64,000 bases of DNA from Beijerinckiaceae bacterium (GTDB lineage: Bacteria; Pseudomonadota; Alphaproteobacteria; Rhizobiales; Beijerinckiaceae), in the NCBI GenBank assembly GCA_027532775.1, contig JAPZTO010000001.1, forward strand, positions 496,001-560,000. The letters run 5' to 3'. Both the position numbers and the translations under genes were made by a program. Below the pieces are notes generated by a model, which did no database searches, was not told the origin of the DNA, and worked only from the letters and a program-made list of their open reading frames with translations. Positions 32,871-54,707 of the stretch are shown here, one piece after another; position 1 is the first letter of the stretch; the number at the start of each line of letters is the position of its first letter.

Positions 32871-34523
32871 TCAGTGCTGCAGCCGCATATTGAGCGCGCC
32901 CGGTGCATTGCGCTTCGCCTCGATGAAGCGATGGAGATCGGGCAGCGGCATCGGCTTGGCGAAATAGAAGCCCTGAAAATGATGGCAGCCCGCTGCACGC
33001 AGGAAGATGTGGTGTTCGAGGGTTTCCACCCCTTCGGCATGAACGGTCATGCCCAGGGAACGACCGAGCGACACGACACCGTGGATGATGGCCGCCGAGC
33101 CATTTGAACGGCCGAGATTGCGCACGAAGGCCTGATCGACCTTGAGCTTGTCGAAGGGGAAGCGCCGGAGATAGCTGAGGGAGGCATAGCCGGTTCCAAA
33201 GTCATCCAGCGCGACGTGGATGCCGGCGCCGCGAAAGCCGTTGATGATGCCGATGGCGGTCTCGGCATCCTCCATCAGCACGCCCTCGGTGATCTCGATC
33301 TCGACGCGCTTGGCCTCGACGCCGGATTGGCCGATGATCCTCAGCATTTGATCGAGGAATTCCGGCCGGCGGAACTGCACCGGCGAGACGTTGATCGCCA
33401 TGTGGATGTCGCCGAGATCCAGCGCGTCGTTCAGGGCACGGCGCATGGTCCATTCGCCGATCTCGACGATGAGGCCGGATTCCTCAGCGAGCGGGATGAA
33501 GACGCCCGGTGAGATGATGCCCTCGTCCGGGTGGACCCAACGGAGGAGCGCCTCGACGCCCACGACGGTTTCACCATCCGAAGCCATGTAGGGCTGATAC
33601 CAGACCTGGAGCTGGTCGCGCCCGATCGCATGGCGCAACTCGCCTTCGAGGAACTTGCGGCGGCGAAGCTCGTCTTCCATGCTCGCGTCGAACCGCAACG
33701 CCTTGCCACGGCCGGCCGCCTTGACCCGATACATCGAGATATCGGCCCGCCGAACGAGAACGGTTGATTCGATGCCATCCATCGGGGCGACAACCATCCC
33801 GACAGAGCCCCCGATCGACAGTTCCGTCGAGCCGATCAGGAACGGCTGGCCAAGCACGGAGCTGATGTCATGGCCGAGCTGCTCGATATGGTCAGGCGTC
33901 CGCCGTCCATAGACGACCATGGCGAATTCATCGCCGCCGAGGCGCGCGATATCGGCCTTGGGGCCCGCGAGATTGCGCAGGGCTTCGGCCACCGCGACCA
34001 GCAGCCTGTCCCCCATTTCGTGGCCGAATGTGTCGTTGACGTCCTTGAACTTGTCGAGATCGATATAGATGACGCCGAGGATGGCATCATCCGCCCGGGT
34101 CTCGAGGGCATCATCCAGTCGGGTCTTGAAGCCTGAGCGGTTATGGAGGCCCGTCAGGGGATCGCGCATGGCCCGGTCCAGCACGATCGCCTCGATCCGC
34201 CGCACCGTGGCGATAGCCCGGCGGGAATGCGCGATGTTGTTGAACGACGCGCCGATGGCGATGACAAGCGAGACCAGCAGGGCACCGAAGGCCAGCTGGA
34301 AGAGGGCGCGATCCGTCAGCCAGTCGCCATCAATGCCCAGCTGAACTGCCAGCGCGCGGAGATCGATCAGCCCGGTCGCGCCGTGCCCGGCAAAAATGCC
34401 CATGGCCAGCAAGGCGAAGACAATCCCGAATCCGTTGGCAATATTCAGGAAGAACTGATGGCGCTGGGCAAGCTCTCCTGCCGCGCTCTCAATCAGGTCA
34501 TCATGCCTTGTCGGATTCGACAC
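32871..34523 (-). CDS. Membrane GGDEF-EAL protein (c-di-GMP metabolism)
   Basis: 550 residues. Two N-terminal membrane helices (about 24-48 and 70-95) are followed by GGDEF (D-P-L-T-G-L-H-N-R; active site R-L-G-G-D-E-F near 193) and EAL (E-A-L-L-R-W near 322; N-V-S-P-V-Q-F; D-D-F-G-T-G; E-G-V-E-T). Both catalytic motifs are intact, so it could make and degrade c-di-GMP. It has no periplasmic sensor domain to speak of. Start is a GTG at 34523. It is downstream of, and on the same strand as, the channel/PilZ-like genes of the adhesin locus (107-bp gap). Confidence 0.93.
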   Translation of the reverse strand: MSNPTRHDDLIESAAGELAQRHQFFLNIANGFGIVFALLAMGIFAGHGATGLIDLRALAVQLGIDGDWLTDRALFQLAFGALLVSLVIAIGASFNNIAHSRRAIATVRRIEAIVLDRAMRDPLTGLHNRSGFKTRLDDALETRADDAILGVIYIDLDKFKDVNDTFGHEMGDRLLVAVAEALRNLAGPKADIARLGGDEFAMVVYGRRTPDHIEQLGHDISSVLGQPFLIGSTELSIGGSVGMVVAPMDGIESTVLVRRADISMYRVKAAGRGKALRFDASMEDELRRRKFLEGELRHAIGRDQLQVWYQPYMASDGETVVGVEALLRWVHPDEGIISPGVFIPLAEESGLIVEIGEWTMRRALNDALDLGDIHMAINVSPVQFRRPEFLDQMLRIIGQSGVEAKRVEIEITEGVLMEDAETAIGIINGFRGAGIHVALDDFGTGYASLSYLRRFPFDKLKVDQAFVRNLGRSNGSAAIIHGVVSLGRSLGMTVHAEGVETLEHHIFLRAAGCHHFQGFYFAKPMPLPDLHRFIEAKRNAPGALNMRLQH

Positions 34524-34630
34524 AAAAGCTGCCCATTTTGCGGGCGCCGGCGACCCGACGCGATCCCCCGGATAGCATCGAACCTCCTAACGTTTGATGA
34601 GGCCCGGCGGTTGCCTTCTCTTCGAGTTCT

Positions 34631-35128
34631 TCAGGCCGGCAGCCCATGGACTTGCACGAGCGTGCGGACTTCTGCCGGAGACAGAAGATCCTGCAACTCG
34701 ACCAGATAGCCCTTTGCGGATGTCTCGATGATCCGGCCACGCAATTCGTGCTCGCCAAACCGGACCACCACCTCGGCTTCCGTCCGGTCGAAAATGTACC
34801 GGGACCCCTGGCGGAAGATCAGGCAATCCTCGGCGATCTCGAGGACCAGCCCGTCAAGGGCCAGCGAACGATCGGTCAGGATCAGAACCGCCACAACGCA
34901 GCAGGGCCGCAGCGCGCCATCCTGTCCATTCCGCCGGCGTGGCCATAGCCTGGCGAGCCAGCCTTGCCTCGCCGTCGCCTCGCGGTGCTCCTCCTCCGGG
35001 CCGCGACCGATGCGCAAGCCGATCTCCTCGCGCATCTCGGCCGGCGTCATGCGGCGGCGCGGTTCCTGCGTGCGCTCCTCCTGCGTGCGTTCCGGATAGG
35101 CCTGATTGTCCCCATGTATCGACATCAC
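34631..35128 (-). CDS. PilZ-like small protein next to the MotA-like gene
   Basis: 165 residues starting at GTG 35128 (or ATG 35125), only 8 bp after the MotA-like stop, so co-transcribed. The N-terminal third is charged (Glu/Arg-rich, with R-R-R-M-T-P-A-E-M-R-E-E-I-G). The C-terminal 90 residues are beta-rich and resemble a PilZ barrel (L-D-G-L-V-L-E-I-A-E-D-C-L-I-F, R-G-R-I-I-E-T-S). The c-di-GMP motifs are not convincing: no clear RxxxR, and E-x-A-x-x-C replaces D/N-x-S-x-x-G. It may be a degenerate PilZ scaffold, or unrelated. Confidence 0.6.
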   Translation of the reverse strand: MMSIHGDNQAYPERTQEERTQEPRRRMTPAEMREEIGLRIGRGPEEEHREATARQGWLARLWPRRRNGQDGALRPCCVVAVLILTDRSLALDGLVLEIAEDCLIFRQGSRYIFDRTEAEVVVRFGEHELRGRIIETSAKGYLVELQDLLSPAEVRTLVQVHGLPA

Positions 35129-35136
35129 GATCCCTG

Positions 35137-36924
35137 TCAGTTTGTCTGGATGCGGCGGTTCAGCGCCGTCACGAAAAGCCGCTGGCGCAGGGCATCATGG
35201 TCGTATTCAGGGCCGGCATTCTGCGCCTGGCGACGCTCGTGCTCCGGCAGGACGACGCCGGCATTGCCGGGCATCGCAACCGGCGCCGGCGAACCGTCTT
35301 CGGCTGCGATCGCATTCTGCATCATCGCGCGGTTGAGGATCGTCGAATAGGCCGCGAAGACGGTCTCGAATGATCGCGAGACCTCGCTGAAGCCCGAAGC
35401 GAGGCGATCCTCGAATTCCTTGGACAGCCCGACCTGGCTTGAGCCGAGGCCACCGTCCCGCAGGACCTCCTTGAGATCGGCATGATCCTGCGCCATCCGC
35501 TGCATCGATGTCTCGATGGACATCGATGTGCGCTCCAGCAGGGTAGCAAGGCCGCCAAAGCCATTCTTCACCTTCCCCTCGATGCCGATGGCGATCTCGG
35601 TGATCCGGTCACCGGCCGCCTTCACGTCGAGCAGCTTGGCGAGGCGGGCATTGGTCTCGTAATTCTCGGAGGTGAGTCGGCGGAGGCCATCGAGATAGGC
35701 TTGGCCCGTGACTTCCATAATATGGGCCATGCCGTTGAAGCCGGATGTCAGGCCAGTCTCGGTCTTGCGCTGAACGTTGATCAGCTCCTGCAAATACTCG
35801 GCATTGGCCGCCTGCGCGGCCACCAGCATGCTCATCTGCTCGCGCATCTCGCCGGTCTCCGCCGCGATTTTCGAAACCGCACCGAGCATGACCCGGATCA
35901 TTTCCTGGTTGCTGGCCTGCAGGCTCACAATGTCGGGCAGGGTATTGTTGACCGTATCCATGCCCTGGTTCATGCGGCCGAAGCCCTGCGCCATCGTGGC
36001 CACGACACCGACATCGGAAATACCGCCGGCAGTTCCGGTGCCCTTGCCTCCGCCCCCGCCCGAATCGGCAAGGTTCGTCGCGATGAGACGGGCCAGTTCG
36101 CCGGCTTCGCTGCGGCTGCCACTGCCCATATGGGACATGCCGGCGAGCCAGCCTGAGAATTCATCCTTGAGGATGTTCAGCCCATGGCTGCCGAAGCGCG
36201 AGAGGATGCCGAGGATCAAGGATCCAAACAGCCCGAACAGCGAAGACGAGAACCCTGTTGCCATGCCGGTGAGAGGCACCTGCAGGTTGGTCAGCAGGCG
36301 CTTCATCGAATCGCCGGACGACGCGTCAGTGCCCCCCAGGCTGCCGATAATGTCGCCGACCGAGCCGACCATTTCCATCAGACCGATGAAAGTGCCGATC
36401 AACCCGAGGAAGATCAGCAGGCCGGCGAGATAGGTGAGCTGGTTGCGTTCGTCGGCCAGCTTCTGCTCGATCCCCATGACCACGTTCTGCATGGTCGATA
36501 CCGAGATCGAGAGGTTCTTGGCCCGGTAGAGTTCGTCATAGGCCACCTCGAACATATGCCCGAGGGATTTCGGCCGCGAGAACACAACCCCGGGATCCAG
36601 CGCGCGGTAATGCCGCCAATAGGGGTCATCCAGCGTCTCGGTCCGTTCACGGCGGGAATCGTTGAACGCTTCCTGCAAGGCCTCGAAGGCGATGGCATCG
36701 GCGCGGATGCGGAGGACACGCTGGAAGGCCAGCACCGTGCCGAAAGCGAAGACGGCGATGATCATCCCGTTCAGCCAGGGATTGGCGACAAGCCCCTGCC
36801 AGACGAAGTGACGCCCGAGCATCACAACCAGCCCCACCGCGCCCATCACGATGACCATCCGGAGGAGCTGGGCGTGGATGGTTTGCCTCAAGGCATTCTG
36901 GCGATCAGGCAGCGGGCTCTTCAT
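35137..36924 (-). CDS. MotA/TolQ/ExbB-family proton-channel subunit with long cytoplasmic tail
   Basis: About 595 residues from ATG 36924. Four hydrophobic segments at roughly 20-40, 52-72, 165-188 and 218-243; the last two carry the MotA/ExbB core (L-I-F-L-G-L-I-G-T-F-I-G-L ... G-M-A-T-G-F-S-S-S-L-F-G-L). A tail of about 340 residues follows, Gly-rich around 285 and then mainly helical or coiled-coil. ExbB and TolQ (about 230-245) and MotA (about 290) are much shorter. The MotB-like partner is encoded 87 bp upstream. Position in the type I secretion/adhesin locus suggests a SiiB-like role, coupling proton flow to adhesin secretion or retention (inference). No flagellar gene is near. Confidence 0.85.
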   Translation of the reverse strand: MKSPLPDRQNALRQTIHAQLLRMVIVMGAVGLVVMLGRHFVWQGLVANPWLNGMIIAVFAFGTVLAFQRVLRIRADAIAFEALQEAFNDSRRERTETLDDPYWRHYRALDPGVVFSRPKSLGHMFEVAYDELYRAKNLSISVSTMQNVVMGIEQKLADERNQLTYLAGLLIFLGLIGTFIGLMEMVGSVGDIIGSLGGTDASSGDSMKRLLTNLQVPLTGMATGFSSSLFGLFGSLILGILSRFGSHGLNILKDEFSGWLAGMSHMGSGSRSEAGELARLIATNLADSGGGGGKGTGTAGGISDVGVVATMAQGFGRMNQGMDTVNNTLPDIVSLQASNQEMIRVMLGAVSKIAAETGEMREQMSMLVAAQAANAEYLQELINVQRKTETGLTSGFNGMAHIMEVTGQAYLDGLRRLTSENYETNARLAKLLDVKAAGDRITEIAIGIEGKVKNGFGGLATLLERTSMSIETSMQRMAQDHADLKEVLRDGGLGSSQVGLSKEFEDRLASGFSEVSRSFETVFAAYSTILNRAMMQNAIAAEDGSPAPVAMPGNAGVVLPEHERRQAQNAGPEYDHDALRQRLFVTALNRRIQTN

Positions 36925-37011
36925 GGTCAACGGCGAATCCTGTTGGGGTCAGGATCACAGTCGCTGATTATGGTTAGCAACTTCCAAACGTCGTCGGCGC
37001 AGGACGCATTC

Positions 37012-37710
37012 TCAGCGGCCGTCGGAACCGGATTGGCCGGCCATGGCGCGGATCTCGATCCGGTCGGCCGCGGCACCCTCCCGGCTGTCCACGACCCTGA
37101 CCTGGATGTTCTGGGCCGGAATGCCGTTTGCGATCAGCTGTGTCCGCGCCGAGAGCGCCCGGTAGAAGGCCACGCGCCGCGCATCGGAGGCATTGCCGAG
37201 CTCCAGGCCTGCCAGGGCCATGATCTGGTAATGGGTGGCCTTGCCGCGATGCCCTTCCAGGAAGGCACGGACTTCGCTGCCGGCATTCCCGTCAATGCTC
37301 GTACCCCTCTGCGGGAAGGTCAGCGTAAGGACAGCTTCCGATTGCCGCGCCGCGACATCCCCGCGCGGCACGAAGGCCTTCTGCGCCTCGCCGGCATGGA
37401 CAACGCGATCCTGCCCTTCGAGAGGAACCGCCCTGTCCTCCGGAAGCTTGGCAACCGGCGGGTTGCGCCGCTGGTATTCGAGGGCCTCGGCAATCTGCCG
37501 GGCCATGGCCTCGGTATCGGCCTGACGCCCCTCGACCGGCAGGCCGGCGGCATCCGCGATCTTTTCCACGAGGGAGCGCGATGCATTCTGGGTGATACCG
37601 AACAGGGCGATGGCGAGAATCATCATCACGAAGACGAGCATCATCGTCATCGTGGTCAGGGCGTCGACATAGCCCGGCCAATGGTTCTCGTTGTCGCCGC
37701 CCTCTGTCAT
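37012..37710 (-). CDS. MotB/OmpA-like proton-channel partner (SiiA-like)
   Basis: 232 residues. A short cytosolic start, then one membrane helix (about 14-40) with H-W-P-G-Y-V-D-A-L-T-T-M at its head. Asp16 stands where MotB, ExbD and TolR carry the essential proton-binding Asp. The periplasmic part has a helical linker and an OmpA-like peptidoglycan-binding domain (about 120-230, with N-A-S-D-A-R-R-V-A-F-Y). It pairs with the MotA-like protein downstream and follows the ABC exporter gene by 64 bp. This matches SiiA of Salmonella SPI-4 in layout, though no residue-level similarity is claimed. Confidence 0.85.
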   Translation of the reverse strand: MTEGGDNENHWPGYVDALTTMTMMLVFVMMILAIALFGITQNASRSLVEKIADAAGLPVEGRQADTEAMARQIAEALEYQRRNPPVAKLPEDRAVPLEGQDRVVHAGEAQKAFVPRGDVAARQSEAVLTLTFPQRGTSIDGNAGSEVRAFLEGHRGKATHYQIMALAGLELGNASDARRVAFYRALSARTQLIANGIPAQNIQVRVVDSREGAAADRIEIRAMAGQSGSDGR

Positions 37711-37774: not shown

Positions 37775-40285
37775 TTAAGCCGCAGCCGGGCCGACTCCGA
37801 AGCGCTTGAGGATCTGGTCTTTCGGCCCGTCCGCCACGACCCGGCCTTGATCGAGCCAGATGATCCTGTCGACCATGGCCAGCACGGGCAATCGATGGGT
37901 CGCGACGATGATGCCCATACGATCCGTTTCCAGCTTGCGTATTTCGGCGATGACGCGGGCCTCGAGCCCGTTATCCATTGCCGAGGTCGGTTCATCCAGC
38001 AGCAGGACGGTGGGCGCGCCCATCAGGGCCCGAGCCAGCGAGACCGATTGCCGCTCGCCCCCCGACAGACGCTGGCCGCCAGGGCCGACCTGCAGCGTGT
38101 AGCCGGCCGGGTGGAGGCTGGCGAAATCAGCGACACCGGCGAGCCGGTTGACCTGCTCGAAGTAAGCAGGATCGACATCCGGCAACCCGGCCATGAGATT
38201 GTCATGGAGCGTGCCGTCGAACAAGGCCGTGTCCTGCGGCATCAGGGTCAGATGGGCCCTGAGCCAGGCCGGGTCGTACTGGCCGATCTCCTGTTCGTCG
38301 AGCAGGATACGGCCATCCTGCGGTTCGACAAGCCGGGCGAGGACGCGCAGGAGCGTTGACTTGCCCGAACCGGCCTTGCCCACAAGGGCGACACGTTCGC
38401 CCGGAGCAATGGACAGCGTGATATCCCTGAGGCAGGGCCGCAATTCCCCCGGATAGACGACGGAGAGCCGATGCAGGTCGATCTTGCCGCGGAGCCCCTG
38501 CCGGATCGGGCGGACCCGATCCCCCGCCTGCTCGATCGGCTCGACGAGAAACGGTGCGAGAACCGACAGCGCCCGGACATTCTGCAATGCCCGGAAGACC
38601 AGTCCCGCCAGAATCGAGATCGGCATCATCGAACGGTTGACGAGCAGGATCACGGCGGAAAGTGCGCCGATCGTCATGCTTGCATCCTGGATGCGGTAGG
38701 TACCGATGACCAGTGCCGCCACGATCGAAACCTGGACGATGACGGCGGCGAGTTGCGCGGCCATGCCGTTCCAGTAGCGGGCGAGATGGCCGGTATAGCC
38801 GGCTTCGTCGGAGACCTGTTCCCACGCGGCCATGCGGGATGGCGCGGCATTGGTGATCCGCAGCCGCTCGATGCCGCCCACCATGTCCATCACCTGCTGG
38901 ACCTGCTTGCCCTGGGCACCCATCGCCTCGCGCAGGACACGGCGCGACATCACATGGGCCGCGACATGGCAGAGCACAACCAGGAAAGTGGCGACGAGGG
39001 GCGCGAGCACGACAGGGCCGCTGATCGAGAAAATGAAAAGCATCAGGAAGATAAAGAAAGGCAGGTCGATCGCGACGCTGGCGATCAGCTGCGGCATCAG
39101 GCGGCCGGATTGCTCCATTTCCTGGATCAGCGGCATGATCGGGCCGATCTGGCGTGGCACACGCTGTGCCCGGGCGAAAAGCAGGCGACGGACGAAGCGG
39201 GCCTGAAGGACATGGCTCGCCTCATGGCCGATCGCGTCGCCAAGCTTGAGCCGCGCATGCCGGAGAACGGTTTCGAGGCCGAGCGCAAGGATCGCGCCGA
39301 TCGACAGGGCCCAGAGGGTCTCGTTGGCGCCATGCGGGATCACCCGGTCGAAGACGGCCATCGAAAAGAGCGGCAACGCCATGCCGAGCAGGTTGATGAG
39401 CAGGCCGCCGAGGCAGAGATAGGCGATCCGCCCGCCCTGCCCTTCCAGGGCGAGGAGCAGAAGGGAATACACATCCGGCGCTGGTTCCTCGACCGACTCG
39501 GCTTTCGCCGGTTCGGGCCGTACTGCGCGATTTCCGGGCGCAGGCGGGCCCGCCACGGCCGGGCTTTCCCGGGGCTGCTCCTGCTGGGGCCGGGGGATCG
39601 GTCCGGCGCCGGATCCGGCGGCGTTCGATGCGCGATCTGCCGTTGTGCCTGGATTGTGTGGCGGGGCGACTGCATCCGGCCTGGGAAGCAGTGGCGGGGC
39701 AAGCCCGTTCGGCGCGGAGCCTGCTGAAGCCTCCGGCGGTGCAGGATCCGGGGCAGCGACAGGCCGGGGCGCGGGGCGCGCGAGGTCGATCACGCGGAAA
39801 ATCGAACTGCTGGCCGCCCGATCGAGTTCGTCGATCTCGACGTCATAGGCGCCCTCCGGCCCGAGGAGTCGGAAGCGGTCCTCGTCGGTCCGTCCGATCA
39901 CCAGCCGGCTGGAGCGATCCCGCAACATCACAACAGCCGGAAGGAGGGCCGGGTCGAGCTGCCGCAGCGACATCGCCTCCCAGATCACCGAGAATCCCAG
40001 CTTGTCGGCGATCAGGGCCAGGGTCGCCGGGCCGGGCATCGAGGCCGGCGGCGCATCGGGGACAGGGTCCTCCACCGGCCGGCCGCACAGCCGGGCGAGG
40101 CGCTGGAGATCGGCGACAGGGTGGCTGGCCGGCCCCAGTTCGGCCGTCACGCCCTGCGCGGTCTCGTTCATGGCGCGGAACCGCTCGCGCAGCCGTGCAA
40201 CGGTCTCGCCAAAGGGGGCCTCCCCTTCGGAACCCGCGGGTTCCGTTTGCTGCCTGGCGCTTTCGCTCATCCTGCCGACGACCAT
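37775..40285 (-). CDS. Type I secretion ABC exporter (permease-ATPase)
   Basis: 836 residues. A degenerate C39-like domain (about 45-165) lacks a C39-type Cys motif, so it probably docks substrate rather than cleaving it. A Pro/Ala-rich linker (about 170-270) follows, then six membrane helices (about 290-570) and the ATPase: Walker A G-K-A-G-S-G-K-S-T near 636, signature L-S-G-G-E-R-Q near 740, Walker B L-L-L-D-E-P, H-loop A-T-H-R. This is the LapB/HlyB family, and the giant adhesin is the obvious substrate. ATGs at 40285 and 40270 are both possible. It is divergent from the HlyD gene, with a CtrA-like box between. Confidence 0.93.
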   Translation of the reverse strand: MVVGRMSESARQQTEPAGSEGEAPFGETVARLRERFRAMNETAQGVTAELGPASHPVADLQRLARLCGRPVEDPVPDAPPASMPGPATLALIADKLGFSVIWEAMSLRQLDPALLPAVVMLRDRSSRLVIGRTDEDRFRLLGPEGAYDVEIDELDRAASSSIFRVIDLARPAPRPVAAPDPAPPEASAGSAPNGLAPPLLPRPDAVAPPHNPGTTADRASNAAGSGAGPIPRPQQEQPRESPAVAGPPAPGNRAVRPEPAKAESVEEPAPDVYSLLLLALEGQGGRIAYLCLGGLLINLLGMALPLFSMAVFDRVIPHGANETLWALSIGAILALGLETVLRHARLKLGDAIGHEASHVLQARFVRRLLFARAQRVPRQIGPIMPLIQEMEQSGRLMPQLIASVAIDLPFFIFLMLFIFSISGPVVLAPLVATFLVVLCHVAAHVMSRRVLREAMGAQGKQVQQVMDMVGGIERLRITNAAPSRMAAWEQVSDEAGYTGHLARYWNGMAAQLAAVIVQVSIVAALVIGTYRIQDASMTIGALSAVILLVNRSMMPISILAGLVFRALQNVRALSVLAPFLVEPIEQAGDRVRPIRQGLRGKIDLHRLSVVYPGELRPCLRDITLSIAPGERVALVGKAGSGKSTLLRVLARLVEPQDGRILLDEQEIGQYDPAWLRAHLTLMPQDTALFDGTLHDNLMAGLPDVDPAYFEQVNRLAGVADFASLHPAGYTLQVGPGGQRLSGGERQSVSLARALMGAPTVLLLDEPTSAMDNGLEARVIAEIRKLETDRMGIIVATHRLPVLAMVDRIIWLDQGRVVADGPKDQILKRFGVGPAAA

Positions 40286-40345: not shown

Positions 40346-40390
40346 AAATTGGTGCGAGCGTCGTTCCGCTGCATTGAAGTGGAGATTCCC

Positions 40391-41692
40391 TTGCCTGGAC
40401 CGGAAGGAGCGGCCGGATCGCCGACGCGGCTCTGTGCGGGCATTGCCCGGCGCAGCCATCACCACATGATCCTCGCCATCTTCTGCGGTATCGCCGTCTT
40501 CCTTGTCTGGGCGACCCTGACGTCGATCGACCGCGTCACGCGGGGCTCCGGGCGCGTCGTTTCACAGACGCGGAACCAGTTGGTCCAGCATTTCGAGGGC
40601 GGCATCGTCACCGAGATCCTTGCCCGGGAAGGCGAGAATGTCCGTGCAGGCCAGCCGCTGGTCCGGATCGAAAACTCGTTCGCAAAGGCGGAATTGCAGA
40701 ACAACCAGCTCGAACTCTATTCAAAACTGATTGCGTGGAACCGGCTCGATGCCGAGGCGCGCGGTCTGCCTGGCTTTGATGAACCCCCGAATGAAGGCCT
40801 CGATACGCGGCAGATCTTCGAGCAGGAGCATTCGCTGTTCCGCGCCCGCAAGGATGGGCTTCAGGCCCAGATCGCGGTGATCGACGAGCAGTTCAAGCAG
40901 AAGCAACTCGAACTGGCGGAGACCCAGACACGGTGGAGTTCCTCGCAGCGCGAGCGCGAGATCGTGACGCCGCGCGTCGAGAGCCTGCGGCGGCTCGTCC
41001 AGATCGGCGCCGTGAGCCGCAACGAGCTGCTCGATAACGAACGGTCGCTCCAGCAGGTCGAGGCGCGGATGGCCGGTCTTATCCACGAGATCGCGCGGCT
41101 CGAAGCCGCCGTATCCGAACTCGGGCGACGGCGCGAGGAAGTGACATTGCGCTTCCGGGCCGAAGCCGAGAAGGACCAGCGCGAGACGTCGGTCCAGATC
41201 GCCAAGCTCAAGGAAAGCATCTCGGCGATGCGCGACCGGTCGAACAGGTCGGAAGCGGTTGCGCCAGTGGCCGGCACCGTCAACAAGCTCTTCGTGGATA
41301 CGATCGGAGGCGTGGTGAAACCGGGCGATCCTCTCGCGCAGATTGTGCCGATGGATGCCTCGTTGATCGTCGAGGCCCGCATCCCGCCGAGCAGCCGCGC
41401 CCAGATCTGGCCGGGCCTGCCCGCGATCATCAAGGTTTCGGCCTATGATTTCGCCGTCTATGGCGGCCTGAAGGGCAAGGTGATCGATGTCTCGCCGGAT
41501 GCCTTGGCCGACGAGAAGGGCGAGCCCTATTTCCGCGTCCGCCTCGCGACAGAATCCCGCGGCTTCGGGCCGGGCCAGCCGGTCATTCCCGGCATGGTCG
41601 CGCAGGTCGACATCATTTCCGGCCAGCACACGATCATGAGCTACGTCACCAACCCCATCAACCGCATGACCAGCGAGGCCCTGCGGCAGTGA
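40391..41692 (+). CDS. HlyD-family type I secretion membrane-fusion protein
   Basis: About 433 residues. One N-terminal membrane helix (H-M-I-L-A-I-F-C-G-I-A-V-F-L-V-W), a biotinyl-lipoyl half (G-S-G-R-V-V ... V-Q-H-F-E-G-G-I-V-T-E-I), a long coiled-coil hairpin (about 90-280), the second lipoyl half (V-A-P-V-A-G-T-V), and a beta domain ending in the HlyD/LapC/PrtE-type C-terminus. It links the ABC exporter to TolC in the periplasm. TTG 40391 follows GGAG by 6 nt; the frame is open from 40349 (TTG, GTG), so the start is uncertain. It is the only plus-strand gene of the locus and converges on the adhesin stop (6 bp). Confidence 0.92.
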   Translation: MPGPEGAAGSPTRLCAGIARRSHHHMILAIFCGIAVFLVWATLTSIDRVTRGSGRVVSQTRNQLVQHFEGGIVTEILAREGENVRAGQPLVRIENSFAKAELQNNQLELYSKLIAWNRLDAEARGLPGFDEPPNEGLDTRQIFEQEHSLFRARKDGLQAQIAVIDEQFKQKQLELAETQTRWSSSQREREIVTPRVESLRRLVQIGAVSRNELLDNERSLQQVEARMAGLIHEIARLEAAVSELGRRREEVTLRFRAEAEKDQRETSVQIAKLKESISAMRDRSNRSEAVAPVAGTVNKLFVDTIGGVVKPGDPLAQIVPMDASLIVEARIPPSSRAQIWPGLPAIIKVSAYDFAVYGGLKGKVIDVSPDALADEKGEPYFRVRLATESRGFGPGQPVIPGMVAQVDIISGQHTIMSYVTNPINRMTSEALRQ

Positions 41693-47600: not shown

Positions 47601-49318
47601 GGCGCGAAGCTGTAGGTGATTGTATCGCCAGCATCCTGATCTGCAGCCTGGATCGTACCGATCACTGCACCGATCGCGGCGTTCTCCGGCAACGTGAAAC
47701 CTGTGATTCCGATAAAATACGGAGCTTCGTTGACGCCGGTGACGGTGATCGCCAAATTCTGGATGTCGATACCGCCGGCCTGATCCGTCGCCTGGACGAT
47801 GATGTTATAGACATTATCGGACCCAGCATCAGCAGGAAGCTCGAAATCCGGGTTGTTGACAAAAGTCAGCGTGCCCGTGACGGCATTGATCGTGAAGCGC
47901 GCAGCATCGGGACCGCCGATGATGGAATAGGTGATCGTATCGGCGACGTCCTGATCGATGGCCGTGACACTGAGAACCGAGTTCGCGTTTTCCGGCACGA
48001 CCAGCGCACCATTGTCTCCTCCGCCATGGGAGACGATGACAGGCGCGTCATTGCCGTTCTGGACAGTGAGGAGAAACGGCTGGTCGAAAAAGAGGCCACC
48101 CTGATCGGTGACACGGACAACCACCAATTGCTGGGGGCTGGCTTCGAAATCGACGAGATCGCCCCGGATGACGGTGAGCTGGCCTGTAATGGCGTCAATC
48201 GCAAAACGTCCGCCGGCATCGCCGCCTGGCGCAAAGCTGTAGGTCAGCGTGGTCCCGCCGTCGAGATCAGTGCCGGTAACCGTACCGACCAGAGTGTTGA
48301 GCGCCGTATTTTCCGAGAGTGTCGACGCGGTGATGACCGCCGAGATCGGTGCCTCGTTGGCATCGCCGACAGCAACATAGATCTGCTGACGGTCCTGACC
48401 CTGACCATCGGAAGCGACAACCTGAACCTCGTAGATGTTGTTGCCTGCCGCCGAATTCGCCGATTCGAAATCAGGCGGATTGAGGAAATAAAGCTTACCG
48501 GTGACGCCGTCGATGACGAAGCGGCTGGCATCGGCGCCGCCGGCAACCGCGAAAAAGACATTCTCGCCATTGGGGTCGGAGGCGGCGATCTGCCGGATGA
48601 AGGTCGCGTTCTCGAGCGAGCCGACCGTCAGCGAATCGACCCCGTTATCCGAGGTGATCTGCGGGGTCGGGTTCTCGGGTTCCGGTGCCTTGCCGGCGCG
48701 GTCGGAACGCTCGACGAGCGCGCCTTCGCTGCGCAGTTCCTCGGTGGGCGCGGTAACGACACGCTTGCCGAATTCGGAAGCGGGCCTCGCCACCGATGGA
48801 TCGCCGGACGGATCGGAAAGGACAGCGCGCTGCAATGGCAGAGGCGTACTGGCGAATTGCTGCGCCGACGGGAGTTGCACCGCCTGGGGTGTTCCGCTCT
48901 GGTTGCCATCGCCGCCTGCCGGAGCGCGACGGGGATCTGCCACCGCCATCTGGGGGATCTGCTCGAAGAAGCGGATATCGCCGGCATTGGCCAGCAGTGA
49001 TTGCGGATCGACCGCAGCGTTGTTGAACTGGATCAGCGGCGGGCGGTCCGAGACCATCTGCAACGCAAAGGACGGCATGATGATCCTGCCGCCATCCGGG
49101 AAGGTCAGGACAGCGTCGACATCGAGGATCGAAACCGAGACATCGGCCAGCGAAAACGCGAACCGGAGCGTCCGCGCATCAATCACATCGACGATGCGCA
49201 CTTCGCCGGCTGCGGGGCGATCGATCTGCTGGTCCGGGCCGGGCATGGATGCCGGGGGCGGGGCGGGCAATGCTGCTGCCTGTGCAAGCATTCCCTGCCC
49301 GCTGTTACGTTCGTTCAC
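41699..49318 (-). CDS. Giant cadherin-repeat adhesin exported by type I secretion
   Basis: 2,539 residues from GTG 49318. No Sec signal. Residues about 1-125 form a beta-rich N-terminal domain (D-V-I-D-A-R-T-L-R-F-A-F, L-T-F-P-D-G-G-R-I-I-M-P) that may be a retention or assembly domain; 126-215 is a Pro/Ala/Ser-rich linker. Then come 20 cadherin-like repeats (about 216-2,291), each with D-P-D-A-G, D-F-E-A-P-T-D, D-G-L-G-G and N-x-N-E-A-P calcium motifs. The C-terminal 250 residues hold two RTX blocks (G-N-D-T-L-S-G, G-G-N-G-N-D-T-I-R-G) and an uncleaved-type secretion signal. The neighbouring ABC/HlyD/TolC genes are the likely exporter. Role: cell-surface attachment or biofilm (inference). 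Confidence 0.93.
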   Translation of the reverse strand: MNERNSGQGMLAQAAALPAPPPASMPGPDQQIDRPAAGEVRIVDVIDARTLRFAFSLADVSVSILDVDAVLTFPDGGRIIMPSFALQMVSDRPPLIQFNNAAVDPQSLLANAGDIRFFEQIPQMAVADPRRAPAGGDGNQSGTPQAVQLPSAQQFASTPLPLQRAVLSDPSGDPSVARPASEFGKRVVTAPTEELRSEGALVERSDRAGKAPEPENPTPQITSDNGVDSLTVGSLENATFIRQIAASDPNGENVFFAVAGGADASRFVIDGVTGKLYFLNPPDFESANSAAGNNIYEVQVVASDGQGQDRQQIYVAVGDANEAPISAVITASTLSENTALNTLVGTVTGTDLDGGTTLTYSFAPGGDAGGRFAIDAITGQLTVIRGDLVDFEASPQQLVVVRVTDQGGLFFDQPFLLTVQNGNDAPVIVSHGGGDNGALVVPENANSVLSVTAIDQDVADTITYSIIGGPDAARFTINAVTGTLTFVNNPDFELPADAGSDNVYNIIVQATDQAGGIDIQNLAITVTGVNEAPYFIGITGFTLPENAAIGAVIGTIQAADQDAGDTITYSFAPGGNPNGIFAIDASTGALSIADNSTINFNVTPSYSVVVRVTDSFGLSTDQIFTITVVDINQAPEITSNGGGIAATFNHVEGATFATTVTATDPDVGNVVTYSISGGADAALFTIDAATGALSFIVAPDFAAPTDANLDGTYEVIVQASDGLLADTQLLTINVIDNNTAPVITSNGGGDTAVITVPENSTSVFTTVTATDPDAGAVFTYSIVGGTDAARFTINATTGALRFSSGRNFEAPSDFGSDNVYDVIVQVSDGQGAVDTQAIAVVVTNVNENPTINSNGGGGTANIALAEGTSLVTTVTANDPDAGAVKIYSLFGGADASKFSIDATTGQLTFIAPPNFEAPTDTGADNVYTVVVRVQDGLGGSDTQTINVTVTDSNEAPTITSVSTVSITENGSSVLAVTATDPDAGAVLTYSIVGGADAGKFAIDSATGVLTFVTPPDFDVPGDAGGNNVYDVQVQVSDGLGGTATQNIAVTITNQNEAPGITSAATVSVAEGGTAVMTVTASDPDAGAALIYSIVGGSDAVKFAINPSTGVLTFVSSPDFEAPTDVGGDNVYDVRVQVSDGLGGTTTQDIAVTVTNQNEAPAITSSNVATITENSTAILTVLAADPDAGASLSYSIVGGADAAKFAINPTTGVLTFVAAPDFEAPIDAGGNNVYDVQVQVSDGLGGTFTQNIAITITNQNEAPGITSAAAVSVAENGTAVMTVTATDPDAGASLTYSITGGADAAKFVINPTTGVLTFVTAPDLESPTDAGGNNVYDVQVQVSDGLGGTATQNIAVTVTNQNDAPTITSSNIASITENSSAVLTVLATDPDAGAILTYSIVGGADAAKFAINATTGVLTFVAAPDFEAQTDAGGNNVYDVQVQVSDGLGGTATQNIAVTVTNQNEAPGITSAATVSVAENGTAVMTVTAADPDAGASLTYSIVGGADAAKFAINTTTGVLTFVSAPDFEAPTDVGGNNVYDVQVQVSDGLGGTVTQNIAVTVTNQNEAPGITSAATVSAVENGNAVLTVTGTDPDAGASLTYSITGGADAAKFAINPTTGVLTFVSAPDFEAPTDAGANNVYDVQVQVSDGLGGTATQNIAVTVTNQNEAPGITSAATVSVVENGTAVMTVTATDPDAGSSLSYSIVGGADAAKFAINPTTGVLTFVSAPDFESPTDAGGNNVYDVQVEVADGLGGTATQNIAVTVTNQNEAPGITSNGGGTNATINVLEGTTAITTVTSTDPDAGASLTYSIVSGIGDHAKFAINATTGALTFIAAPDFEAPTDAGGDNVYNVRVQVSDGLGGIDTQNIAVTVTNVNEAPGITSAATVSVAENGTAVMTVTAADPDAGASLTYSIVGGADSAKFAINPTTGVLTFIAAPDFEAPTDAGGNNVYDVQVAVADGLGGTTTQNIAVTVTNQNEAPTITSNGGGATASVTFAENGVITLPVTTVTATDPDAGASLTYSIVGGSDASDFDIDAVTGVLTFKVSPDFENPADSNLNNVYNVQVQVADGLGGTKLQSIAITVTDQNEAPAITSASTVSVAENGTAVLTVAATDPDAGASLTYSIIGGADSAKFAINATTGVLTFVSAPNFESPTDAGGNNVYDVRVQVSDGLGGTTAQDIAVTVTNQNEVPTITSAATVSVVENGTSALTVTATDPDASPTFGFSIAGGADASLFTINSTTGEVTFNSAPDFENPADAGGNNVYNIDILVSDGQGASVTQSVAITVTNQTNTINGTAGNDTLSGTAEDDQINGFDGDDSLNGSARADVMNGGADSDTVVYDLSGSGVTVNLATNSGTGGDAEGDTYVDIENVFGSTNDDSLTGNSGVNTIRGGNGNDTIRGNGGIDQLFGNAGNDTFILDLDVQSTSLTIDGGAHQDAVNLVGSGTLTLGQLSFMTNVETIDFEAAGVAADFTNFTATHATDVLGTSGPGNTLTFKMDGNDTFTVAAGEHFTQTGSEYTFFTDATLTTELAKVSIV
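42446..48673 (-). repeat. Twenty tandem ~306-bp cadherin-repeat units inside the adhesin gene
   Basis: Each unit encodes 101-107 residues. The first seven (N-terminal, about 46451-48673) have diverged. The last thirteen (about 42446-46450) are highly alike in DNA as well as protein, with long shared stretches around the V-Y-D-V-Q-V-Q-V-S-D-G-L-G-G coding segment. That pattern suggests recent amplification or gene conversion and a risk of length variation or misassembly. Confidence 0.9.
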
Positions 49319-49491: not shown

Positions 49492-51390
49492 TCACTGCTT
49501 TGTTGCAGCAGCGACCGATGCAGGCGCCTTGTCCTTGCCAGCCAGAACCGAAGCCAATGCTCCGGTATATCGAAGGATATCGATAACAGCTTTCTGCCGC
49601 TCGAAGCGGCTCTCGATCTGCGCCCGGCGTGCGGTGTAGACCGCCATCTGCCCGTCGAGAAGTTCGAAGACAGTCCGTTTCCCCGCCTTGAACTGCTCGA
49701 GATAGAGCTCCTCGGCGCGTCGGGCCGCACTGGCCCCCTCGTCCAGCAGACGGGCCTTCGCGCCGGCACTGTCGATCGCGCGATAGGCCTGGCGGAGATC
49801 AGCCTCCAGTTGCTGGCGCTCGTTGATCATCGTCAGTTCGCTGGTTTCGATCCGGTTCCGGATCTGGCGTTCCTGGGCTTCGGCCAGTCCGCCATCCAGC
49901 AACCTGAAGCGCATGGCCAGCATGGCGCGTCCTTCGATCTGTGTCCGCCCGCCCTTGCCGGACCGGAAGTTCTTTGACTCGGTATCGAGCTCGAACATGA
50001 ATTTCGGCTTGTTCGAGGCGCGCTGGGCATCAAGCTCGCTCTCGATGGACTGGGTGGTCGCGCGCAGGGAAGCCAGCCGCGGATTCTTGGCGAGAACGAC
50101 GGAAATAGCGGCTTCCGGACGGGCCGGAATGCTTGCCCTGAAATCGGGAACAGCAATCAGGCGGCCGGCCCGTTGCCGGGTCAGGCGTTCGAACTGGTCC
50201 TCGGCGCCGCCGAGTTGCAGGGACACATCGGAACGGACAGCCGTGATGTCATTCAGCCGCGACCGGATGCGGCTCGAATCCGCGCTTGTGCCATGTCCTT
50301 CGGCTTCCTGCGCTGCCACGATCTTCAGCAGGCGCATATGCGCCGCGATCGTCTCGTCGATCAGGGAGACCAGCGCACGATGTTCAAGGATCTTGAGGTA
50401 GACCTGCGCCGTCCGCCAGGCGATCTCGTCGATCTTCTCGTACAGGCGTTCCTGTTCGGCATTGGACAGCAGGCGGGCGCGGGCAATGTCGGCCCGGGCG
50501 GCCCCGAAATCCCAGACAAGCTGGCGGAGGATGATGCCGCCATCGAACCGGTTGTCGCCTGCGTTGCTGGCGACATTATAGGGCACGGCCTTGCCTTCGT
50601 AGGAGCCGGAAAAATTCCCGCCGGCAGCGAGGCGTGCATCGGCCGACGGATAGAGGGCGGAGCGCGCGATATCGATCCCCGCCTTTGATTCCAGCAGCCT
50701 CGTCTGGTTGATCCGGATTTCCGGATAAGTCAGGACAGCCCGCGCGACCGCATCCTCGAGCCTGATCACGCCGAGGCGTGCAGGTGGCCGTGAAGACGGC
50801 TCAGGTGGCAGGGATGAGCCCGAGGCAGGGCGTGGCGGGGCGATCGACCCTGTCACGAGGGCTGCCTCGACCGGCACCGGTTCCGCCAGCGCTCCGGACG
50901 GCTCTGCGGGAATTTCAGGCGTGATCGGCCGTTGGGACGGCACCGGCGCCGATACGGCACTCGACCGCAGCGGGCTGGCCAGAACCTCGGCCGGGATCAC
51001 CGATGCCGGCCGACGCATCGCGGTTGTCGGGGCCATGATCACGCCTTCGGCAAAGGGCCGCTGCGGCGGCAAGGGCATTGCCAGCGCCGTCATGTGTGAC
51101 AGGGCCGGTACCGGGTGGATCGCCGCCACAGCGGGCATGAGCGGCGCGCTCCGGGCCGCAAGCTCGACCGGAACTGAGGTTTCGCAGCCTTTCTTCGGGT
51201 CCGGATGATCCCCGGGCAAGGGCCCGCATGCAGCCGGCGGATCGGGCTTCCACATGGCGCGCAACTGTGCCGTCGCCAGAAATCCGGAATCGATTCCCTG
51301 ATGGGAGCACCCGGAGAGAAGGATTGCGAGAACGATCGCCCCTGCTGTCTTCGGCCGTGCCCAACGCTGAACTACTGGCAACCCTGCCAT
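49492..51390 (-). CDS. TolC-family outer-membrane protein of the type I secretion system
   Basis: 632 residues. A lipoprotein-like signal with L-L-S-G-C near residue 28 opens the protein. Residues about 40-220 are a Pro/Ala-rich extension not found in TolC. The OEP domain (about 225-620) then shows V-W-D-F-G-A-A-R-A-D-I-A-R-A and R-L-N-D-I-T-A-V-R-S-D repeats. Typical TolC proteins are about 450-490 residues. It lies 173 bp upstream of the adhesin gene on the same strand and completes the exporter with the ABC and HlyD genes. Confidence 0.92.
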   Translation of the reverse strand: MAGLPVVQRWARPKTAGAIVLAILLSGCSHQGIDSGFLATAQLRAMWKPDPPAACGPLPGDHPDPKKGCETSVPVELAARSAPLMPAVAAIHPVPALSHMTALAMPLPPQRPFAEGVIMAPTTAMRRPASVIPAEVLASPLRSSAVSAPVPSQRPITPEIPAEPSGALAEPVPVEAALVTGSIAPPRPASGSSLPPEPSSRPPARLGVIRLEDAVARAVLTYPEIRINQTRLLESKAGIDIARSALYPSADARLAAGGNFSGSYEGKAVPYNVASNAGDNRFDGGIILRQLVWDFGAARADIARARLLSNAEQERLYEKIDEIAWRTAQVYLKILEHRALVSLIDETIAAHMRLLKIVAAQEAEGHGTSADSSRIRSRLNDITAVRSDVSLQLGGAEDQFERLTRQRAGRLIAVPDFRASIPARPEAAISVVLAKNPRLASLRATTQSIESELDAQRASNKPKFMFELDTESKNFRSGKGGRTQIEGRAMLAMRFRLLDGGLAEAQERQIRNRIETSELTMINERQQLEADLRQAYRAIDSAGAKARLLDEGASAARRAEELYLEQFKAGKRTVFELLDGQMAVYTARRAQIESRFERQKAVIDILRYTGALASVLAGKDKAPASVAAATKQ

Positions 51391-51430: not shown

Positions 51431-51593
51431 TTCAATCATCCTTTCTGTTCGGTTAAGTCCTGCCAGTACGGAGATCAGGCCGCCGCTTCGATCAGGGCGG
51501 CGCTGGCGGAGCCAGTTGCCCGACACGCGCGATGACATGCGGCCGGCAAGGCACGGCCGCCCCGGACGAGCCAAGCGCATGGGCGCGCTTTTG

Positions 51594-54500
51594 CTATTTG
51601 CGCTTCGCCTTGGCGGGCTTGGCCGACATTGGCACCACATTCGCGATGTTCAGATGCGCAATCGCACCGAGAATGGAAGCCGGCTTACCCAGCAGGTAGC
51701 CCTGGCCTTCGGTGCAGCCCAGCTTCCGCACGAGATCGAGCTGCTCTTCGGTCTCGATGCCTTCGGCGGTTGTCGACATGCCCAGCCTTGTCGCCAGTTC
51801 GATGATGGAACTGACGATGGTCAAGCAATCGCTGCGGAAATTGGCCTCGGCAATGAAGACCTTGTCGATCTTGATCTTCTGGAAGGGGAACCGGCGGAGA
51901 TAGTTCAGCGAGGAATAGCCGGTGCCGAAATCATCCAGCACGATCCGGACGCCGGCATCGCGAAGCTGATGGAGGTTCTGGACGATCCGCTCGTTTTCCT
52001 CGAGCAGCGCCGTTTCGGTGATCTCCAGTTCAAGCCGGTCGGCCGGCATACCGCTGGCCTCCAGCGCCGACATCACGTTGTGAACAATGCCATCGCTCTT
52101 CAGCTGGACCGGAGAGAGATTGACCGCGACCTTGCCCGAGCCCGGAATCCGGGCAATGTCGGAGCAGGCACGATGCAGCGCCCAGGCACCCATGTCATGG
52201 ATCGCACCGGAGGCCTCTGCCAGCGGAATGAATTCCATCGGGCCAAGACGCCCGCGCGTCGGGTGGTTCCAGCGGATCAGCGCCTCGAAGCCGATCGTCC
52301 GGTTTCCGGCAAGCTGGACGAGCGGCTGGTAGGCCAGTTCGAACTGCTCGCGACGGACCGCATCCCGCAGCTCGCTTTCGATCTCGACCCGGCGATGCAG
52401 CCGCGTGGCCATGTCAGGCGTGAAGATCCGGTACGTGCCCCGGTTCTCGTCTTTCGCCTGGTAAAGGGCGAGATCGGCATTCTTGAGCAGGGTGTCAGGG
52501 TCGGCAACATCGTCATTCGCGATGGCCGCGCCGATGCTGACGCCGATCGTCACCGGCTGACCGGAGAGATCATAGGGTGCGGACAATTCCGCAATGATAC
52601 GGTCGCTGAGTGTGCGCACCCGCTCCTCGATCCGCGGGGCGCAGACGAGAATGGCGAATTCATCTCCGCTAAGCCGCGCCACGACATCCGAATCACGCAG
52701 GCAGGTGCGGAGTCGCATGGCCACCGCTTCCAGCAGGGCATCCCCGACCGGGTGGCCGAGCGTGTCGTTGACGTCCTTGAACTTGTCGAGGTCGAGGTAG
52801 AGCACGCCGATCCCGGATTCCGCGGGTCGACGGACCAGCGCCTCATCCAGCTTGGAGCGGAACAGGACCCGGTTGGGAAGGCGCGTCAGGGCGTCGAAAT
52901 GCGCCATGTTCCAGATCCGGCGTTCGGTCTGCTGGCGTTCGGTCACGTCCTCGTAGATCGCGACGAAGCCGCCGCCCTCCATTGGCTGCTGCGTTACGGA
53001 AAGGGCGCGCCCGTCGGTGGCCTCGGTGACAAGGCTGCCCTGGATTCCGGCTTCGGCGCGCTCGGTCTGCCAGCCCTTGATCCGCGCCACCATCTCGCGC
53101 GGGTAGCTCACCCCGACACTCTCGATGCGGGCGAACAGGCTCTCGACCGGCAAGCCGACACCCGCGCCCTGATCGTCGATGCCAAACAGTTCCATGAAGC
53201 GGCGGTTGCAGACGATCAGCCGTCCCTGCGCATCCGCCATGATCAGGCCATGTGACATGTTGTTGAGGGCTGCGTCGAAAAGGACGTTCTGCTTGCGCAG
53301 ATCCAGATCCCGCTGGAGAAGGACGGCATTCTGGCGCTGGACTTCACCGACAGCCTCGCGGGCCCGGCTGTTGGCAACCGCGAGTTCGTCGAGGGTCTGC
53401 CGCATCGTCGAGATGTCCGTCCGGATACCGACAATCCCGCCGGATCGCGTGCGCCGCTCCTGGATCAGGATCCAGCGGCCATCCGGCAGCAGGCGCTCGA
53501 TCGACCCCTCGCAGGTCCTGTGCCAGCGCGTGATGTCCTCGATGAACTTGTCGATATCGTCCCCGGCCTGGGGATACTGGCCGTTTTCCGCGCCCTTGCG
53601 CATGATTTCGCCGAAATGCGCGCCCGGGTAGATGAACTCGGCGCTTTTCGCGTACATCTGCTTGTAACGCGTGTTGCAGGTGACGAGGCGGTCTTCCTCG
53701 TCCCACATCACGAAGCCATCGGACATGGCCTCGATCGCGTCTTCCAGCCTCGTCTGGGCTTGATGCCGTTCGGCCTGCAGCTTCTCCTCGCGCCGCGCCA
53801 TGATGACCAGCCCGATCGCGAAGGCGATCACGACCAGCGCGAAGACCGCAGCAACCGCCTGGACGCGCTGGAGATCATTGCCCCACTCCGCGAGAGCCAG
53901 TTCCCGGTCCAGAAGCAGGACGACCCGGATATCCGGATAGGCCGACGGGCGAACCACGCCGAGCAGGCTCTTGCCGCCTTCGCGAGGCTCGAAGGTGAAG
54001 ACGCTGCCATCCATCGCCGGATAGGCGCTGCCCGCCTGCCCGATCTGGCCGATATGCAGTTCGGCATGCGGGAAACTGGCCAGCAACTGGCCGCTTTCCC
54101 GTTCGAGGCGGATCTCCAGACCGGGAAAATCATCGATGTAGGAGAGAGCCGAGCCGAAGATCGAAACCGGCAACTCGGCGGCGGCCAGCATATTGCCCTT
54201 GCCGGGGACAGGAATGGTCCGGACGAGGTACCAGGTCCAATCGCCGGTGAGCGTGTTCCGTACCGGGCCAATGACACGCTGGCGGCCGGCAACGCCTTCC
54301 GGCATCACGGGGTTGAACGGCACCGTCCAATGCGCCGGCCTGACCTTGCCGGCAGCCCAGATCTGGCCTTCCGGTTCGATGATCATCAGGTCACGGAAGG
54401 CGAAGGTCTGGTAGTTCAGGCCCTGCAGGACCCGGTTTGCCGCGGCCTGCGTGAGAACCGCCTCTCCCCGGCGGGAGGCTTCCGCCAGCAGCATCGGAAC

Positions 54501-54707
54501 GCGCGAGAGGGCGGCATCGGCCTGGACGAGCTGGCGGTTGACCGAGTTCTCGACATTCCGCGCCGTCCGGTCGAGCTGCTGCTCGGTGGCCTGGAGCGTC
54601 GTGCGATAGGTCCGCTCGAGAACGAAGGCCGCACCCGCAGCCAGCGCCCAGAGCATCAACGCGGCGCCGAGAATGATGTAGGGAGTAAGCTTTCGAACCT
54701 TCATCAC
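51594..54707 (-). CDS. Membrane sensor PAS-GGDEF-EAL protein
   Basis: 1,037 residues. Membrane helices at about 8-32 and 285-310 bracket a periplasmic Cache-like sensor (about 35-280; F-R-D-L-M-I-I-E-P-E-G ... Y-L-V-R-T-I-P-V). Two PAS modules follow (about 325-440 and 475-600), then S-G-D-E-F (active variant) near 679 and EAL (F-E-A-L-I-R-W near 805; D-D-F-G-T-G; E-G-I-E-T). Start GTG 54707 / ATG 54704. A TRAP-type binding protein gene ends 54 bp upstream on the same strand, so its ligand-bound form might feed this sensor (inference). The adhesin TolC gene follows downstream after 203 bp. Confidence 0.93.
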   Translation of the reverse strand: MMKVRKLTPYIILGAALMLWALAAGAAFVLERTYRTTLQATEQQLDRTARNVENSVNRQLVQADAALSRVPMLLAEASRRGEAVLTQAAANRVLQGLNYQTFAFRDLMIIEPEGQIWAAGKVRPAHWTVPFNPVMPEGVAGRQRVIGPVRNTLTGDWTWYLVRTIPVPGKGNMLAAAELPVSIFGSALSYIDDFPGLEIRLERESGQLLASFPHAELHIGQIGQAGSAYPAMDGSVFTFEPREGGKSLLGVVRPSAYPDIRVVLLLDRELALAEWGNDLQRVQAVAAVFALVVIAFAIGLVIMARREEKLQAERHQAQTRLEDAIEAMSDGFVMWDEEDRLVTCNTRYKQMYAKSAEFIYPGAHFGEIMRKGAENGQYPQAGDDIDKFIEDITRWHRTCEGSIERLLPDGRWILIQERRTRSGGIVGIRTDISTMRQTLDELAVANSRAREAVGEVQRQNAVLLQRDLDLRKQNVLFDAALNNMSHGLIMADAQGRLIVCNRRFMELFGIDDQGAGVGLPVESLFARIESVGVSYPREMVARIKGWQTERAEAGIQGSLVTEATDGRALSVTQQPMEGGGFVAIYEDVTERQQTERRIWNMAHFDALTRLPNRVLFRSKLDEALVRRPAESGIGVLYLDLDKFKDVNDTLGHPVGDALLEAVAMRLRTCLRDSDVVARLSGDEFAILVCAPRIEERVRTLSDRIIAELSAPYDLSGQPVTIGVSIGAAIANDDVADPDTLLKNADLALYQAKDENRGTYRIFTPDMATRLHRRVEIESELRDAVRREQFELAYQPLVQLAGNRTIGFEALIRWNHPTRGRLGPMEFIPLAEASGAIHDMGAWALHRACSDIARIPGSGKVAVNLSPVQLKSDGIVHNVMSALEASGMPADRLELEITETALLEENERIVQNLHQLRDAGVRIVLDDFGTGYSSLNYLRRFPFQKIKIDKVFIAEANFRSDCLTIVSSIIELATRLGMSTTAEGIETEEQLDLVRKLGCTEGQGYLLGKPASILGAIAHLNIANVVPMSAKPAKAKRK

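Follow-up and report, generated by a model that had tools for sequence, protein, structure and literature searches.

The closest described counterpart of the locus reported here, which lies in a 64,000-nucleotide stretch of DNA (the window) from a Beijerinckiaceae bacterium (contig JAPZTO010000001.1 of assembly GCA_027532775.1, 3.8 Mb in 17 contigs), is Salmonella pathogenicity island 4 (SPI-4). There, SiiABCDEF comprise a MotA-like/MotB-like pair, a type I exporter and a giant adhesin, SiiE. According to PMC6272769 and PMC12607715, the adhesin is exported C-terminus first and retained through its N-terminal part, and less of it stays at the surface when the proton motive force collapses. SiiA has a membrane aspartate, a linker and a peptidoglycan-binding domain that includes Arg162 and Arg167 and ends at residue 210 (residue roles from PMC12607715). 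The same source describes SiiAB as a Salmonella accessory and the coupling of proton motive force to adhesin retention as unclear.

We find that some alphaproteobacteria keep genes for a putative proton motor beside a giant-adhesin exporter, much as in Salmonella SPI-4. What is new here is that the adhesins share an unnamed N-terminal domain which accompanies the motor and which may be its grip point. Literature listings and the consulted portions of PMC12204202, PMC9389320, PMC6272769, PMC12607715, PMC11890865 and PMC12153261 gave no description of this alphaproteobacterial module; Wille 2014 and Kirchweger 2019 are known to us by reference, and this does not prove absence from the literature. 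With a SiiA-like motor both in free-living alphaproteobacteria and in another class, such a motor would become a general part of secretion, and the common N-terminal domain is a concrete candidate for the motor's target.

Motor subunits and their relatives

All of the genes named in the initial annotation of the window are present where it placed them (Table 1): those for an ATP-binding cassette (ABC) exporter, HlyD, TolC, a cadherin/RTX protein, MotA-like, MotB-like and PilZ-like proteins and, at both edges, GGDEF-EAL proteins. The type I secretion trio and the giant adhesin all fall in one locus, as in SPI-4. Most of the comparison with SPI-4 drawn in the initial annotation stands, including the dedicated MotA/MotB-type pair. 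On the minus strand the order of transcription is TolC, adhesin, ABC exporter, MotB-like, MotA-like, PilZ-like and GGDEF-EAL, with the plus-strand HlyD gene sitting between the adhesin and exporter genes. The exporter scores 526.5 bits against TIGR03375, for which the NCBIfam cut-off is 693.1. The locus differs from SPI-4 in its extra PilZ gene, its opposite-strand HlyD, its alphaproteobacterial hosts and its adhesin, which has cadherin/RTX repeats rather than the Ig repeats of SiiE and may also differ in its unnamed N-terminal domain. Because cadherin, and not an Ig type, is the best model for the adhesin, we class the locus as a Sii-like variant and not as an SPI-4 locus.

The assignment of the MotB-like subunit as SiiA-like is supported by profile, predicted fold and arginine residues, and peptidoglycan binding may be expected of it. 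When the profile of its periplasmic domain was compared with the Protein Data Bank (PDB), Salmonella SiiA (PDB entry 6qvp) ranked first with E = 0.069. The predicted structure of the domain likewise placed 6qvp first on re-alignment of the first 1000 Foldseek chains, less than one Z unit ahead of an OmpA-like domain, which the tool treats as a tie. Arg179 and Arg184 of the window protein correspond to both of the peptidoglycan-binding arginines of SiiA, and the two proteins share a short N-terminus before the membrane helix. The hydrophobic stretch spans residues 13–44 and would form a single membrane helix carrying Asp16, as in the partner subunit of a 5:2 motor; this aspartate is kept in all 45 MotB-like frames that span the position. 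The MotB alignment holds 35 of the 45 available rows (44 loci and the window), and a second alignment holds 33 of those 35. The earlier suggestion of enlarged channel subunits stands for the MotA-like protein (400–694 residues in 37 members, with strongly varying tail length) but not for its partner, which has 221–377 residues in 35 members and, at 232 residues in the window, is close to SiiA in size.

The MotA-like protein of the window is only weakly recognized by the Pfam MotA_ExbB model (E = 0.0045, below the cut-off) and matches PADLOC ZorA with E = 4e-6. The core profile ranks MotA and ZorA chains at the top of the PDB, weakly (E = 0.02–0.4). The MotA alignment holds 37 of the 49 available rows. 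The subunit is placed at the level of the MotA/ZorA superfamily. Close relatives are from Beijerinckiaceae metagenome-assembled genomes (MAGs), the named genus being Rhabdaerophilum (sp. SD176). Three stretches of viral contigs matched a search pattern, none of which encodes a MotA-like relative.

ZorA is the best resemblance of this subunit in the PADLOC library, with 35 of the 37 aligned members reaching E ≤ 0.01 against a single ZorA model, so we considered whether a Zorya-like phage-defence system adjoins the secretion genes by happenstance. ZorAB also pairs a MotA-like subunit having a long cytoplasmic tail (noted for ZorA in PMC11890865) with a MotB-like subunit having a peptidoglycan-binding-type domain. 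However, the constant partners here are exporter, MotB-like and PilZ-like genes, with an adhesin in place of defence effectors, and no helicase or nuclease partner, ZorC/ZorD or ZorE was found among the window neighbours scanned with Pfam. We give this explanation almost no credence.

Conservation of the motor–exporter neighbourhood

A scan of species genomes (84,980 by the description of the tool) with patterns from the core profile returned 48 loci. The patterns derive from close relatives, so wider members may escape, and several of the 48 are near-duplicates and hence not independent; the majority come from metagenome bins, and genes were called by simple scripts. Of these loci, 44 are labelled as alphaproteobacterial groups, three as Proteobacteria only and one as a Mycolicibacterium bin (L070). 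The last has frames identical to those of the Alsobacter locus L069 and probably reflects binning contamination.

A MotB-like gene is present in 44 of the 48 loci and a PilZ-like gene also in 44, each within 300 bases of the MotA-like gene in 43. An ABC exporter was recognized in 39, HlyD in 34 and TolC in eight; a simple rule for repeats picked out a repeat-rich adhesin frame in 26. In the four loci lacking PilZ the contig ends inside or just past the MotA-like gene. Six of the nine exporter-less loci are likewise cut by a contig end: L070, L073, L080, L094 and L095 less than 1.7 kb before MotA, and L072 within MotA, where the 4.7 kb upstream holds no exporter. The expectation that the channel genes would co-occur with exporter and adhesin in other alphaproteobacteria is thus borne out, and the converse pattern, with the channel mostly on its own, is not what is seen.

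Of the 249 genomes sampled within the order, 15 (counting the source genome) contain a MotA relative with E ≤ 5.5e-50; a further 226 have only matches of E = 1.6e-31 or weaker and eight have none. In the 14 other module genomes the PilZ-like gene lies beside the close MotA relative in every case and the exporter in 13, the single case without an exporter call being cut by the contig start. The same-genus genome G082 has a distant paralogue alone, which indicates an uneven distribution of the module even between close relatives. Two other TolC–ABC–HlyD sets in the examined stretches of the source genome (L164 and L166) have no motor. The PAR1 and BEIJ3 genomes have two MotA copies each, every copy with its own HlyD, ABC and MotB-like gene.

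A distant superfamily paralogue occurs in nearly all sampled genomes of the order, which would suit an explanation in which a general envelope MotA/MotB pair lies by chance beside a secretion locus. The nearest relatives among the MotA-like paralogues compared are housekeeping alphaproteobacterial pairs (PRK09039-type by label), mostly with about 340–480 residues in each protein. In 19 neighbourhoods of such paralogues from the source genome, the order and the class (control locus L139, of 10 bases, was dropped), HlyD, PilZ-like and giant-adhesin genes were found in none; ten carry an ABC protein of 598–651 residues, the size of a half-transporter. Among 385 genomes of the class, matches to the MotA core profile outside the source genome reach only E = 9e-33 or weaker, and the best of them, in G546, belongs to a MotB–MotA–MotB set without an exporter. 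In the tree a single group containing the 47 secretion-linked sequences is separated from the housekeeping copies, with moderate support (83/93); row L107 is an ABC permease and is to be ignored, L070 and L100 were omitted, and two other rows of the source genome have very long branches. The neighbourhood of the motor pair is far more constant than chance would give (48 loci against 19 controls), and the secretion-linked copies keep their partners across many families. A coincidental neighbourhood is in our estimate extremely improbable.

Some arrangements of the motor genes depart from the usual pair. L069 has a second MotB/SiiA-like gene (3742–4863, 373 residues) upstream of HlyD, giving this Alsobacter MAG two different MotB-like subunits, and in several class genomes (L152, L153, L154 and L157) a housekeeping MotA-like gene is flanked by two different MotB-like genes. 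The MotB-like gene is split into two frames in L046 (14347–15309) and L077 (4676–5638), probably an identical contig, by a frameshift or assembly error. In L100 (2472–6559), from a Rhodobacteraceae MAG, both motor genes are in two frames with an extra gene between them, and the locus is probably decayed or misassembled.

The adhesin N-terminal domain and a possible role for the motor

The window adhesin has 19 stretches matched by its best model, cadherin (E = 7e-189), together with RTX repeats; 13 stretches also fit the bacterial Ig family Big_9. Its first 157 residues were used as the query in 24 genomes, to which 25 of the 48 loci led, and found a relative in 21 of them. The matches lie close to the beginning of frames that are 350 to 9,334 residues long, the short ones of which may be contig ends or broken frames. 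Two matches each were found in PAR1, in the genome of L090 (BEIJ3) and in Rhabdaerophilum SD176, for which one MotA copy is known. Phe28, Asp39, Asp41 and Phe46 (numbered in the aligned segment) are invariant in 18 aligned members. The domain has no meaningful match in Pfam, NCBIfam or the PDB, and no named LapA-type retention module was matched in the 18 members, one of which hits the BapA prefix model with E = 0.14.

In the order sample, the N-terminal profile matches 12 of the 15 module genomes and none of the 234 others (Fisher test, 5e-18, relatedness ignored). Two of the module genomes without a match are incomplete (G176 and G199; 75 and 71%) and in the third, G156, the adhesin frame hits a contig end. 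The sole match in the source genome is the window adhesin, despite other RTX proteins. In the class, 385 genomes were sampled and 19, the source genome among them, have a match, all others with E = 5.9e-15 or weaker. The phylum sample gave eight of 398, again counting the source genome; one of these, G870 (E = 2e-22), has coordinates identical to those of the L097 genome and probably represents that genome. Within the sampled order there is a strict link between the motor and the close form of the domain, whereas diverged forms usually lack such a link.

One diverged form does accompany a motor in another class. G949 has a six-gene row of TolC, MotB-like, HlyD, MotA-like, a 969-residue RTX protein with the domain, and ABC exporter genes. 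Its MotB-like protein (E = 3e-33) contains WPGYVDA and ARRLAFYRA and its MotA-like protein matches with E = 4e-26; PilZ is absent from the locus. This locus came up in the search with the adhesin domain, without recourse to the motor.

In our view the data are best, and probably correctly, interpreted as a Sii-like adhesin secretion module in which the motor pair would control retention of the adhesin through its N-terminal domain. By analogy with SPI-4, the ABC exporter, HlyD and TolC would push the giant adhesin out C-terminus first, so that the N-terminal domain exits last and stays in the exporter, leaving the adhesin displayed and not released. The MotA-like/MotB-like pair would make up a 5:2-type inner-membrane proton channel, which the SiiA-like domain of the MotB-like protein would anchor to peptidoglycan, and could use the proton motive force to hold or let go of the N-terminal domain. 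The idea already put forward in the initial annotation, that proton flow controls export or release of the adhesin, likewise draws on analogy with Salmonella.

Several observations weigh against this interpretation. The SiiA match is non-significant as a sequence match alone, in structure it outscores the next OmpA-like domain by a slight margin, and the full-length MotB profile ranks two ATP synthase b chains over SiiA through the linker region (E = 0.0019 versus 0.12). Of the Sii motor and adhesin proteins, the comparison covered SiiA. L059 has motor and PilZ genes with neither exporter nor adhesin in about 9 kb on each side, though its genome encodes a protein with the N-terminal domain elsewhere; L068 and L075 have no nearby exporter, though a giant RTX protein adjoins; and L083, L086 and L087 have an exporter but no recognized adhesin frame. 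Since module genomes supplied the rows of the N-terminal profile, there is some circularity in the 12 of 15, the none of 234 being a fresh test. Ten of the 11 genomes with a diverged domain whose neighbourhoods were read have no motor pair in the stretch, and in four of these ten (G352, G457, G546 and G623; family f156) TolC or other exporter genes are neighbours of the domain. That diverged domains are mostly motor-less slightly lowers our confidence in the retention module and in the broader proposal that follows.

The broader proposal is that a peptidoglycan-anchored, proton-driven rotary motor acts mechanically on the N-terminal domain lodged in the exporter, by reeling, clamping or releasing it, as a further general way of holding giant adhesins. 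The PilZ subunit would have been added in alphaproteobacteria, motor and domain would be one unit in at least two classes of Proteobacteria, and the diverged motor-less domains would have lost the motor or have an unlinked one. We regard this as tentative, and on balance doubtful.

Alternatively, the motor might energize export itself, the proton motive force pushing or ratcheting the huge protein while retention is controlled elsewhere. The motor does occur with an exporter in most loci, and the longest frames that carry the N-terminal domain have 9,334 and 9,416 residues, a heavy export task. Against this, secretion of SiiE into the medium is unaffected by loss of siiA and siiB in Salmonella, as given in PMC12607715, and G623 (C1, approximately 2910.9–2945 kb; L207 and L208) has, flanked by TolC and ABC–HlyD genes, an 11,488-residue open frame that carries a diverged domain, with no motor pair there, the MotA match in L208 being marginal (14.7 bits). 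This explanation seems to us unlikely.

c-di-GMP components and other features

The PilZ-like protein of the window has no Pfam match; PF07238 matches 12 of the 15 members of the first PilZ family alignment at E ≤ 0.1 (best 3e-9). The RxxxR and xxSxxG motifs are both found in 34 of 45 copies, mostly with glutamate replacing the Asp/Asn of [D/N]xSxxG, which suggests a direct switch by cyclic dimeric guanosine monophosphate (c-di-GMP) in many members and makes control by this nucleotide plausible for the family. Both motifs are missing from the window copy and from L053–L057, L059, L074, L086 and L087, and L083 lacks the second only. Because neither motif is present, direct c-di-GMP sensing by the window copy is unlikely. 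The proposed c-di-GMP input to the system therefore holds in so far as the PilZ gene is core and may couple the module to c-di-GMP in the majority of relatives; in the window organism a direct link of this kind is improbable. Eight of the motif losses, in the group of the window, accompany an adjoining GGDEF-EAL gene; L060–L062 and L064 have such a gene and intact PilZ motifs. L083, L086 and L087 make up a diverged branch in which PilZ is shortened and lacks the second motif and, in two cases, also RxxxR.

The c-di-GMP enzymes had been regarded as part of the system, but a GGDEF-EAL gene follows the module in just 11 of the 48 loci, all within one MotA clade, and the gene at this end is not core to the module. 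In L041 an opposite-strand GGDEF-EAL gene (6071–9487) is inserted between the MotB-like and MotA-like genes.

LapA–LapBCE, with LapD/LapG, resembles the present locus in its LssB-type exporter and its giant adhesin, presumed to be held at the surface. Control of the LapD/LapG kind, in which c-di-GMP from the flanking GGDEF-EAL proteins would decide periplasmic proteolysis of the adhesin and the motor would be incidental, is favoured by the presence of such genes on both sides and by two PF06035 (LapG-type) proteases in the genome. Both proteases, however, are on other contigs, with none at the adhesin locus, which has the motor pair instead, and the GGDEF-EAL gene is as infrequent as noted above. 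LapG requires a double alanine; the P-A-A-G of the window adhesin is P-E-A-G, P-D-A-G, P-A-P-G and so on in relatives, so the P-x-A-G motif of the N-terminal domain has no conserved double alanine and cleavage there was rejected. We consider such control quite improbable here. One of the proteases (G000:C17:587281-587688) adjoins the TolC–ABC–HlyD set L164, so that two kinds of adhesin control may coexist in the genome.

Table 1. Features of the secretion locus, in window coordinates
Feature	Position	Strand	Description
GGDEF-EAL protein	32871-34523	-	550 residues; GGDEF and EAL motifs present; lineage-specific neighbour, not core
PilZ-like gene	34631-35128	-	165-residue PilZ-family protein; core of module
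MotA/ZorA-like channel subunit	35137-36930	-	597 residues; about four hydrophobic segments; long C-terminal tail
MotB-like, SiiA-like subunit	37012-37710	-	232 residues; one hydrophobic segment; Asp16; predicted periplasmic domain with Arg179 and Arg184
Type I secretion ABC exporter, LssB type	37775-40285	-	836 residues; best NCBIfam model TIGR03375
HlyD-type adaptor	40349-41692	+	447 residues; strand opposite to other module genes, divergent from exporter
Giant cadherin/RTX adhesin	41699-49318	-	2,539 residues; likely type I secretion substrate
Adhesin N-terminal domain, unnamed	48941-49237	-	Residues 28-126; common to adhesins of the module
TolC-type outer membrane channel	49492-51390	-	632 residues
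PAS-GGDEF-EAL protein	51594-54707	-	1,037 residues; SGDEF variant; upstream of TolC

Directly downstream of the module, window positions 23645–32723 hold two large adjacent genes with an HlyD-type adaptor and an outer membrane factor; 26731–29847 is an RND efflux pump by the scan, and its neighbour at 23645–26734, similar in size, lay outside the scan. A third GGDEF-EAL protein, with several PAS domains, is encoded near the module at 57378–60053.

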